In this document: positions 42,833 through 45,196 of the stretch, piece by piece
How the letters are laid out: every line of letters starts with the position of its first letter
How positions within the stretch are numbered: the first letter of the stretch is position 1
Source of the DNA: Bacteroidales bacterium
Lineage (GTDB): Bacteria; Bacteroidota; Bacteroidia; Bacteroidales; UBA932
DNA length: 61,940 bases
NCBI GenBank assembly: GCA_017428325.1
Contig: JAFRRA010000003.1
Span: 1-61,940, forward strand
Direction of reading: 5' to 3'
Notes under the pieces: generated by a model
What the model was told of the DNA's origin: nothing
Seen by the model: only the letters and a program-made list of their open reading frames with translations
The model's database searches: none
Translations under genes and position numbers: made by a program

Positions 42833-42840
42833 TAAATTTG
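42833..42840 (+). promoter_or_regulatory. -7 promoter element of the coiled-coil gene and zapA
   Basis: TAAATTTG followed by CG, 11 bases before ATG 42852. It lies in the 17-base block (42826-42842) also found before rarA at 7264-7280. Confidence 0.6.
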
Positions 42841-42851
42841 CGCGATAGAAT

Positions 42852-43151
42852 ATGGCCACGAGGAACGAAACGGAGAAGACTTTGGACCAGCTTGAGAAAT
42901 TGATACAGGAGCTGGTTCGCAGGTATGAGGTTGCCGCAAGGGACCGTTCGGATCTACTCGCTGAGCTTAACAAAACTAAAACTGAATTACAGAACGCTAA
43001 AAACAAGATAGGAGAACAGGAGAAGAGACTGGAGCATTATGAACTCAAGCAGGCATTCGTTTCCGCAGACGGGTCAGACAGGAAAGCCAGGAAGAAAATC
43101 GGAAAGATTGTCAAAGAGATAGATAAGTGCATTTCCCTGCTGAATGATTAG
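42852..43151 (+). CDS. Small coiled-coil protein upstream of zapA
   Basis: A 99-residue, highly charged helical protein. Heptad pattern from residue about 10 to 65 (LDQLEKLIQELVRRYEVAA; LLAELNKTKTELQNAKNK), then a basic tail (RKARKKIGKIVKEIDKCI). It has no signal or membrane segment. Such proteins are often found before zapA in Bacteroidetes. By analogy with E. coli ZapA-ZapB, it may link ZapA to another division component, but this is inference. zapA begins 2 bases after its stop. Confidence 0.75.
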   Translation: MATRNETEKTLDQLEKLIQELVRRYEVAARDRSDLLAELNKTKTELQNAKNKIGEQEKRLEHYELKQAFVSADGSDRKARKKIGKIVKEIDKCISLLND

Positions 43152-43153
43152 CT

Positions 43154-43459
43154 ATGGCACTCAAGAAGAGCAACATAGAGATTACAGTAACGATAGATAG
43201 CATTGAACTGACATATAAATGCTCTCCGTCAGAAGCAGAATTGCTTCAGAAGGCAGAAGAACTTATCAACAAGGAAATCAATTCCTTTAGAAACAATTTC
43301 CGCACACCGGACTATAACAAGATGCTTATCATACTTATGATCAAGTTTGTGATGGCGTCTTTAAGAAAGGAAAGCGATGCCGAAGATACAATGACATCGC
43401 TGAAGGAAATCAATTCTCAGCTTGCTGAATATCTCCATCTCAGCAAAACGAACGCTTAG
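43154..43459 (+). CDS. zapA: Cell division protein ZapA
   Basis: A 101-residue ZapA: an N-terminal beta/alpha globular part (IEITVTIDSIELTYKC, with EAELLQKAEELINKEINSF) and a C-terminal helix for dimer/tetramer contacts. It bundles FtsZ protofilaments at midcell. It is co-transcribed with the coiled-coil gene. The last G of its stop codon is the first base of the structured RNA stem that follows. Confidence 0.88.
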   Translation: MALKKSNIEITVTIDSIELTYKCSPSEAELLQKAEELINKEINSFRNNFRTPDYNKMLIILMIKFVMASLRKESDAEDTMTSLKEINSQLAEYLHLSKTNA

Positions 43460-43650
43460 CCGGCGGGAGGCTCTTTGCGAAAATCAACACTAAAAAAATC
43501 CCGGGCTCTAAAGGTCAGACAATGACAGGCCTAGGTTACCTTTAGGGGGATTCCGCAAGCGGGACGTTGGACGCCAGCGTCTGAGACAGGGCCCAAATCT
43601 TATCATTTAAGATTTTTCGAGAACAGCCCTCTCGTCGGCTTTTTTAATAT
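43459..43650 (+). ncRNA. ssrS: Structured non-coding RNA, candidate 6S RNA
   Basis: About 190 bases with strong secondary structure and no open frame. A 12-bp terminal stem closes the molecule (43459-43470 with 43628-43639, two G-U pairs), followed by TTTTTT, so the outer stem doubles as a terminator. Inside: CTAAAGGT (43508-43515) with ACCTTTAG (43538-43545), CCGC/GCGG (43553-43562), GACG/CGTC (43570-43581), AAATCTT/AAGATTT (43595-43615). Position after zapA is the same as for ssrS in gamma-proteobacteria, and length fits 6S. The internal branching is not obviously the canonical 6S bubble, so the identity is probable rather than proven. I recall that the Bacteroidales-1 motif was linked to 6S, but could not check. 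Confidence 0.65.
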
Positions 43651-43660
43651 ACATACCATT

Positions 43661-45196
43661 ATGGAACATATACTGATACCAATTGCAGCTTTTATTGCAG
43701 GATGTGTCCTCGGGTTCCTTATAGCTCGGCCTATCGTGCTTAAGGGAAAGAAATCAAAAATCCTGCAGGAGGCTGAGAAAGAAGGCGAGGATATCAAGAA
43801 AGAGAAGATATTCCAGGCCAAAGAGAAATTCCTTCAGCTCAAGACCGAGCACGAGCAGTACATAAACAACAAGAACAACGCTCTTAGAGAAACCGAGAAC
43901 CGCATCAAGCAGAAAGAGCTTCAGATCAACCAGCAGGCTTCCGAGATTGCAAGGAAAGAGAAGGAAACGGATGCCATACGCAACAATCTCCGCCTTCAGG
44001 CAGACATAGTCGCCAAGAAAAGCGAGGAGTACGAGAAGCTCCGTCAGCAGGAGATCATCAAGATCGAGAATATCGCCGGAATGAGCGCAGAAGATGCCAA
44101 GAAGCATCTTATGGAGGCAATGAAGGCAGAAGCGAGGACTGATGCCCAGTCCTATATCAACGATGTTATGGACGAGGCCAGGCTGAGCGCGTCCAAGGAG
44201 GCCAAGAGGATAGTTATCAACACTATTCAGAGAACAGCCCCTGAGGTTGCCATCGAGAACGCCGTTACGGTATTCAATATTGACAATGACGAGATAAAGG
44301 GAAGGATTATCGGCCGTGAGGGACGCAACATCCGTGCCCTGGAAGCAGCTACAGGTGTTGAAATCGTTGTAGACGACACACCGGAGGCCATCCTTCTCTC
44401 TGCATTTGATCCTGTAAGGAGGGAGGTTGCAAGACTTGCCCTTCACCAGCTGGTTGCAGACGGAAGGATCCACCCTGCAAGAATCGAGGAGGTTGTGGAA
44501 AAGGTCAAGAAGCAGCTTGAGGACGAGATTCTGGAAACTGGTAAGCGTACCTGCATCGACCTCGGAGTCCACGGACTTAACATTGAGCTCGTAAAGCTTG
44601 TCGGAAGGATGAAATACCGTTCTTCATACGGACAGAACCTTCTCCAGCACTCCAGGGAAGTTGCCAATATCTGCGCTACAATGGCCTCTGAGCTTGGCCT
44701 GAACGCCAAGGTTGCCAAGAGGGCCGGTCTGCTCCACGATATCGGAAAGGTTTGCGAGGAGGATCCTGAACTTCCACACGCAATGCTCGGTATGAAGATG
44801 GCCGAGAAGTTCAAGGAGAAGCCGGATGTCTGCAATGCAATTGGCGCGCACCACGAGGAAATAGAGATGACAAGCCTTATCTCCCCTCTCGTTATGGTCG
44901 CCGATGCCATTTCAGGCGCAAGGCCTGGAGCCAGAAGAGAGGTGATCGAGAGCTATATCAAGCGTCTGAAGGATATGGAAGACATTGCCCTCAGTTATCC
45001 TGGCGTTACCAAGACCTACGCAATCCAGGCAGGAAGGGAACTCAGGGTTATCGTCGGCAGCGAGCAGGTTTCCGACAAGGATATCGAGACTCTCTCCGCA
45101 GAGATAGCCAAGAGAATCCAGAACGAGATGACCTATCCGGGACAGGTGAAGATCACTGTCATCCGCGAATCCCGTTCAGTAGCATTTGCCAAGTAA
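43661..45196 (+). CDS. rny: Ribonuclease Y
   Basis: A membrane-anchored endoribonuclease of 511 residues that initiates mRNA decay. N-terminal membrane helix ([20 protein letters not shown]), a long coiled coil (about residues 25-190), a KH domain ([15 protein letters not shown]) and an HD domain ([22 protein letters not shown]). The C-terminus carries the conserved [20 protein letters not shown]. It starts 11 bases after the U-run of the structured RNA, so some read-through could feed it. Confidence 0.97.

Follow-up and report, generated by a model that had tools for sequence, protein, structure and literature searches.

A probable 6S RNA of divergent form between zapA and rny in a Bacteroidales bacterium

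6S RNA, which regulates transcription globally, is built on a plan of a long closing stem, a central bubble, and an internal stem with an apical loop. In the gamma-proteobacteria its gene, ssrS, follows zapA, and in Escherichia coli ssrS and its downstream gene form a dicistronic transcript that is then processed, as described in one account (PMC7641849). Other reports describe two pRNA classes, seen by dRNA-seq, for the 6S RNA of Bacteroides thetaiotaomicron, an RNA other than the one analysed here (PMC7366714), and the detection of 6S RNA in Flavobacterium psychrophilum (PMC9723704). The Bacteroidales-1 RNA (RF01693) comes from the work of Weinberg et al. (2010; PMC2864571).

The window, that is, the whole stretch of DNA analysed, comprises 61,940 nt from a Bacteroidales bacterium (GTDB UBA932; assembly GCA_017428325.1, contig JAFRRA010000003.1, forward strand). 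On its forward strand, zapA (43154-43459; PF05164, E 1.4e-9) is followed by a putative 6S RNA gene of the 6S-Bacteroidales type in its zapA-rny form (43458-43645, from closing stem to U-run), assigned by a covariance model termed R1, by RF01693 and by covariation, and then by rny, the gene for RNase Y (43661-45196; PF12072 (RNase_Y_N), PF00013 (KH), PF01966 (HD) and TIGR03319). We regard this RNA, with a probability of roughly 0.88 and on the strength of sequence comparison, as the genome's 6S RNA in a divergent form. A small ORF (42852-43151, forward strand) precedes zapA; it matches no Pfam family at E 0.001 and is possibly a zapB-like gene or a counterpart of ZapB. In all 30 loci that were read, the window and 29 of the same genus, this ORF lies upstream of the RNA, and rny lies directly beyond the RNA.

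That a structured RNA lies in the zapA-rny gap, as the original prediction proposed, is confirmed by both the folding energy and the homologues. The minimum free energy (MFE) fold of 43459-43650 reaches -69.3 kcal/mol; 200 dinucleotide shuffles average -52.4 +/- 4.4 (z -3.83), and not one of them is as stable. In this single-sequence fold the outer stem consists of 12 contiguous pairs, with a U-run (43641-43645) after it, just as had been claimed. Its 5' end falls within the TAG stop codon of zapA, an observation that stands for the window and fails as a conserved trait among the homologues: in four close relatives (L002-L005) the zapA stop lies 8-9 bases earlier, and at other loci tens of bases separate the stop from the stem or, in some, the stem extends back into zapA. 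In two same-genus loci (L098 and L101) the predicted zapA frame enters the 5' arm of the RNA, with an overlap of coding and RNA sequence. The absence of a reading frame holds for the sense strand, which has no independent ORF of at least 20 aa in the stretch and carries the end of zapA and a 23-aa ORF starting within zapA; on the antisense strand, ORFs of 20, 21, 32 and 72 aa touch it.

Covariation among homologues, which the original prediction had called for, is present, and the stretch is a conserved, covarying RNA. The alignment on which this rests (A1) consists of 55 homologues from the same GTDB family as the window (f1), that is, 55 of the 65 loci of that family, the remaining 10, all of the same genus, being left out and used later as a test of R1. 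RNAalifold predicts 33 pairs from these 55 sequences, 26 of them with at least one both-sided change. In the 44-pair structure drawn from the same sequences, 93.2% of cells are standard pairs, and both-sided changes occur in 31 of the 44 pairs and in 280 cells, against 19.0 and 68.3 in shuffles, none of 500 equalling the real alignment. When the partners are slid by 1 to 3 columns, only 25-89 both-sided cells are left and pairing falls to 37-52%.

In the structure supported by covariation, three hairpin loops, two apical and one on the 3' bubble strand, sit on a rod of stacked short helices, so that the earlier count of at least four internal hairpins has to be lowered to three; this structure differs from the MFE fold in the pairing of the apical part. 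All parts of the RNA lie on the forward strand. The 5' strand of the closing stem, AGCCGGCG (43458-43465), pairs with its 3' strand, CGTCGGCT (43633-43640), which abuts the U-run; all eight pairs show both-sided changes in A1 and 95.4% of cells are paired. Next comes an inner closing domain, whose 5' side (43470-43482) pairs with 43615-43627 in helices with 87.7 and 96.4% of cells paired, both-sided changes in three of nine pairs giving it weak covariation support. By motif match, its 5' side includes a boxA-like motif, GCTCTTTG (43470-43477). The 5' bubble strand, ATCAACACTAAAAAAATCCC (43483-43502), is unpaired, and its start is strongly conserved, with invariant or near-invariant columns; a block resembling this start is also found in RF01693, RF01685 and the order-level RNAs, and the block around AAACUCAACA (AAAAUCAACA in the window) is among the best-conserved sequence across the RNA groups. 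An internal stem, P2, joins GGGC (43503-43506) with GCCC (43591-43594), with 96.4% of cells paired and both-sided changes in two of four pairs. The apical domain (43519-43580) is a helix of 43519-43531 with 43569-43580 (both-sided changes in six of eight pairs) bearing two hairpins, P5 (43539-43548; 92.5% of cells paired, two of three pairs with both-sided changes) and P6 (43551-43564; 95.6%, five of five). In RNAs of the 6S-Flavo family (L120-L131), the columns of the apical hairpins hold no letters in any of the 12 sequences. The 3' bubble strand carries a hairpin of its own (AATC...GATT, 43596-43614; 92.7% of cells paired, both-sided changes in two of four pairs). To judge from the sequence, the closing stem and the U-run, which lies 15 bases before rny, would form an intrinsic terminator; the sole call of a terminator scan is a local hairpin at 43618-43634, one found against 0.7 in shuffles.

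The features of a 6S RNA are present in this structure: a long closing stem, an unpaired 5' bubble strand, a hairpin on the 3' strand and an internal stem, the internal helices spanning 43503 to 43594. The original prediction had contrasted the internal branching with the simple open-bubble form of 6S RNA; the contrast stands for the apical domain, to which the branching is confined, and not for the closing stem, the bubble and the internal stem, which are all there. The conserved loop sequences AGGCC and GUUGGA appear unusual for a 6S RNA and count against this identification.

How widely is this RNA found, and where? By DNA search, 34 of 36 other genomes of the genus contain the stretch; among 24 genomes of the same order the search gave a single match of 26 bases and nothing else. 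The position of rny was then used across 118 relatives, the window's own genome included: it was located in 116 of them, and 109 rny loci were examined, nine genomes being left out on account of an unusable rny place or of upstream DNA that was not taken. An iterated profile found zapA in 106 of the 109 loci, the other three contigs starting close before rny. The gap between zapA and rny measures 179-455 nt in 97 of the 106 loci and 94-122 nt in nine. All 97 long gaps hold the RNA, 55 through A1 and the other 42, without exception, through R1.

At the cut-offs of Rfam 15, no family matches anywhere in the window. When the threshold was opened to E 10 for 501 bases around the stretch, RF01693 (annotated 'Bacteroidales-1, 6S-Bacteroidales RNA suggested') was the only family to appear, which disposes of a better-scoring family of another kind; positions 1-179 of its 179 align with 43468-43646 at 16 bits (E 2.2), far below its cut-off of 60 bits. 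Of the two models named in the original prediction, RF01693 thus matches end to end and weakly, and RF00013 matches nothing in this genome. The RF01693 alignment alone is a hint and no more. The window RNA is further linked to 6S RNA by R1, built from the 55 family sequences alone, the row of the window RNA being part of this training set. Its single match in the window's own genome (G000:C2:43454-43653, 177.8 bits) makes the putative 6S RNA a single copy in an assembly that is 88.9% complete.

R1 was tested on 68 loci outside its training set (213 kb). At order level, every one of the 32 long-gap zapA-rny loci is matched (E 1.4e-20 to 4e-4). So are all nine over-cut-off RF01693 loci, each at the place given by Rfam (E 2e-11 to 0.011), as well as, at the sites marked by Rfam, 12 of 13 RF01685 loci (E 1e-10 to 7e-5); the 13th, at E 0.14, is an RF01685 hit below threshold that has no zapA or rny next to it. 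The 10 same-genus loci kept out of training are all matched as well. RF00013 itself has matches in 22 of 118 genomes taken phylum-wide, one of them over the cut-off, from three families of which one supplies 20, and R1 matches all 22 at the same spot (E 4.5e-6 to 0.014). The reach of R1 across the phylum is limited: under strict filters it finds 15 of 118 genomes, the window's own included, the other 14 matches being between zapA and rny in 11 cases and elsewhere in three. In a second alignment (A2) of 61 R1 matches outside the training set, the window included, 85.9% of cells pair and 612 are both-sided against 182.5 in shuffles, counts that lean towards R1 because the alignment is fitted to its structure and that include one spurious fragment row (L048:478-520), dropped from the between-group comparison.

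Position points the same way. RF01685 matches lie between zapA and rny at 12 of 13 loci, RF00013 matches in the phylum at 22 of 22, and in one relative of the same order (G040) a sub-cut-off RF01693 hit (37.5 bits, E 1.3e-4) lies in this gap. The window RNA belongs with 6S RNA on these two counts, a place shared by RF00013, RF01685 and the one sub-cut-off RF01693 hit, and a model, R1, shared by the three families. This homology and position support the view that it is a 6S RNA of Bacteroidales type, and the argument drawn from the gamma-proteobacterial order of zapA and ssrS was right and is now stronger. The zapA-rny gap is apparently the ancestral place of 6S RNA in the Bacteroidota. The genome's copies of three other structured RNAs are elsewhere and over cut-off, namely RNase P RNA (G000:C1:555193-555520), SRP RNA (G000:C1:582609-582708) and tmRNA (G000:C4:350188-350588).

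RF01693 exceeds its cut-off in nine of the 118 relatives, with the RNA elsewhere in the genome, and these nine are exactly the genomes with the short gap. Their gaps contain no full-length R1 match, and two fragments were found near the end (15.5 bits, E 0.038; 12.9 bits, E 0.15). In a tree of RNase Y, seven of the nine could be placed, and they fall on one side of a branch facing 28 long-gap rows (support 90/85; 92% of 200 bootstrap trees), together with one genome of unknown gap. Since the short-gap genomes that could be placed form one side of this branch, a single relocation suffices. No neighbour gene shared by the relocated RNAs was noticed by eye in the ORF listing. Three RNAs from another order of the same class (family f56; L142, L143 and L150) match R1 at 48-68 bits away from both zapA and rny, perhaps a second relocation.

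The relocated RNAs are distinguished by the motif TAnnTTTG, which we take to be the consensus of the Bacteroidota -7 promoter element. An exact copy lies within 80 nt upstream of eight of the nine relocated RF01693 RNAs (L031-L039; 0.57 on average in shuffles, which here and for the boxA-like counts preserve base content only), and the motif accompanies two of the three f56 RNAs away from rny. The corresponding counts are 0 of 32 for the order-level zapA-rny loci, 0 of 12 for the RF01685 loci and 3 of 55 for the family loci; near the RNA start in the family, 3 of 55 compare with 1.5 in shuffles, and TAnnTTT[AG] in 8 of 55 with 4.3. Judged by these motif matches, relocation is accompanied by the gain of a probable promoter. 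With one mismatch and no control, TAnnTTTG occurs at 8 of 32 order, 3 of 12 RF01685 and 29 of 55 family loci, so that weak promoters of their own are possible in some genomes.

The occurrence of homologues away from rny bears directly on a reading in which the stretch acts in cis on rny, serving chiefly as its 5' UTR (a leader or attenuator) whose stem and U-run would regulate RNase Y, and in which no free 6S RNA is made. Three observations would suit such a leader: the RNA stops some 15 bases short of the rny start, which leaves no space for a further promoter; no exact -7 motif occurs from zapA to rny in the window; and in 97 of 106 relatives the RNA stands between these two genes. Yet the RF01693 homologues keep the structure away from zapA and rny in nine genomes, three further R1 matches lie away from rny, the RNA has its own terminator-like stem and U-run at its end, and it is homologous to the RF00013 RNAs. 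A function as an rny leader only is rejected, as homologues occur away from rny, and a mainly cis-acting role is very improbable.

A different trans-acting structured RNA, one that does not bind RNA polymerase and shares its place and some motifs with 6S RNA by chance, is very improbable, given that R1 matches three 6S-labelled Rfam families at their own sites and that no other Rfam family appears in the stretch even at E 10; the highly conserved loop sequence and the low RF01693 and absent RF00013 scores of the window are what speak in its favour. That there is no functional RNA at all and that a zapA-rny terminator folds by chance, as two short-gap sequences resembling a plain terminator hairpin (L046 and L105) might suggest, is ruled out by the covariation and goes against the z of -3.8 and the long gap at 97 of 106 loci, the exceptions to which match the relocated RNAs.

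For the 6S RNA of the window, the only exact TAnnTTTG between 42501 and 43660 is TAAATTTG (42833-42840, forward strand), before the small ORF, a candidate operon promoter that is a motif match only, one of 19 exact matches on the forward strand of the whole window. From zapA to the RNA the window contains no exact copy. A sigma-70-type promoter scan gave one site against 1.7 expected, and a scan for Bacteroidota promoters gave a weak excess, 20% of 91 segments reaching at least 8 of 10 matches against 8% in shuffles that preserve base content only, six of the 97 long-gap loci being without an anchor. Expression within an operon of small ORF, zapA, 6S RNA and rny would be the likeliest arrangement. 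As rny starts 15 bases past the U-run, readthrough must feed it unless a promoter lies within the RNA gene.

A further element of these loci resembles boxA, which we take to be the site of NusB/S10 antitermination; the resemblance is one of likeness only. Of the 32 order-level loci, 25 have a copy of GTTCTTTGA with no more than one mismatch in the segment from zapA to the RNA (a mean of 0.3 in shuffles), and in 14 of the 32 the copy is exact (examples with an element of this type are L041, L108, L112 and L115). RF01685 loci have TTCTTT[GA] in 5 of 12 cases (0.1 in shuffles) and, one mismatch being allowed, the longer motif in two of the 12; the element is present at none of the nine relocated RNAs and at 2 of 22 RF00013 loci. 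Four related genomes provide seven leaders of 16S rRNA; GTTCTTTG occurs by pattern in two of them, and the other five show, by eye and with no control, variant forms (GTTCATTGA, GTTCGTTGA, GATCTTTGA); in the window's own assembly (G000, completeness 88.9%) no 16S rRNA gene was found, as is common in metagenome bins. The position of the element differs with the group: TTCTTT[GA] lies upstream of the RNA at 2 of 29 family, 0 of 36 genus and 19 of 29 order loci (three order loci being without an anchor), and CTCTTTG lies at the 5' arm of the RNA at 18 of 29, 33 of 36 and 1 of 29, respectively. The TTT of the embedded copy also pairs within the RNA, so that structure alone could explain this copy. 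It is possible, as a tentative suggestion, that in the Bacteroidota 6S RNA arose in a zapA-6S-rny operon in which it had no promoter of its own, in which boxA-like antitermination carries polymerase past the structured RNA and its terminal stem into rny, and in which 6S RNA levels are thereby coupled to those of RNase Y, and that one lineage of the order left this operon once and gained a promoter. A search for literature linking boxA with 6S RNA returned nothing relevant.

By homology with other 6S RNAs, the window RNA may bind RNA polymerase and serve as a template for pRNA. The closing stem, bubble and internal stem would mimic an open promoter, and the housekeeping holoenzyme would be held in the bubble as growth slows and so be kept off promoters. 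Release would follow from synthesis of a short pRNA by the polymerase on the 5' bubble strand (around 43470-43490), the template extending from that strand (43483-43502) back into the closing stem. A template with a start site would be expected to show conservation of the kind seen in the block around AAACUCAACA, a step that we infer. The closing stem and U-run would terminate transcription, readthrough would supply rny, and the mature 6S RNA would arise from the operon transcript by cleavage or by termination.

Three families that are listed separately, RF01693, RF01685 and RF00013, are linked here by one model. RF01693 reaches its cut-off in nine of 118 genomes, yet 97 of 106 loci hold the RNA in a long zapA-rny gap, from which a simple rule for annotation follows: look between zapA and rny. 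The neighbourhood of zapA and 6S RNA, known from the gamma-proteobacteria, suggests that this arrangement is old, and a passage from an operon place to a stand-alone promoter would offer a case in which the rewiring of a global regulator could be tested. The literature searched, which lay apart from the main 6S survey and in which rny was not a target, contained no link of the three families by one model; within the same scope it contained no shared zapA-rny place of 6S RNA, no relocation with promoter gain and no boxA-like element.

6S RNA is a known kind of RNA, and the window RNA is a divergent member that lies below every Rfam 15 cut-off. RF01693 is colinear with it from end to end, with a similar closing stem, 5' bubble block, GGCC and GGA elements and U-run, and with a similar 3' bubble strand (CUCAAAUC); unlike the window RNA, the RF01693 RNAs over cut-off lie apart from zapA and rny (nine of nine) and have a TAnnTTTG motif of their own (eight of nine). 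6S-Flavo (RF01685) occupies the zapA-rny place as in the window (12 of 13 loci) and is without the two apical hairpins of the window RNA in all 12 aligned sequences. As both apical hairpins are missing in the flavobacterial form, the apical domain is the variable module of this RNA. The same-phylum matches of 6S/SsrS (RF00013) fill the very slot of the window RNA, which differs from 6S/SsrS in its branched apical domain and in having rny, not ygfA, as its downstream gene.
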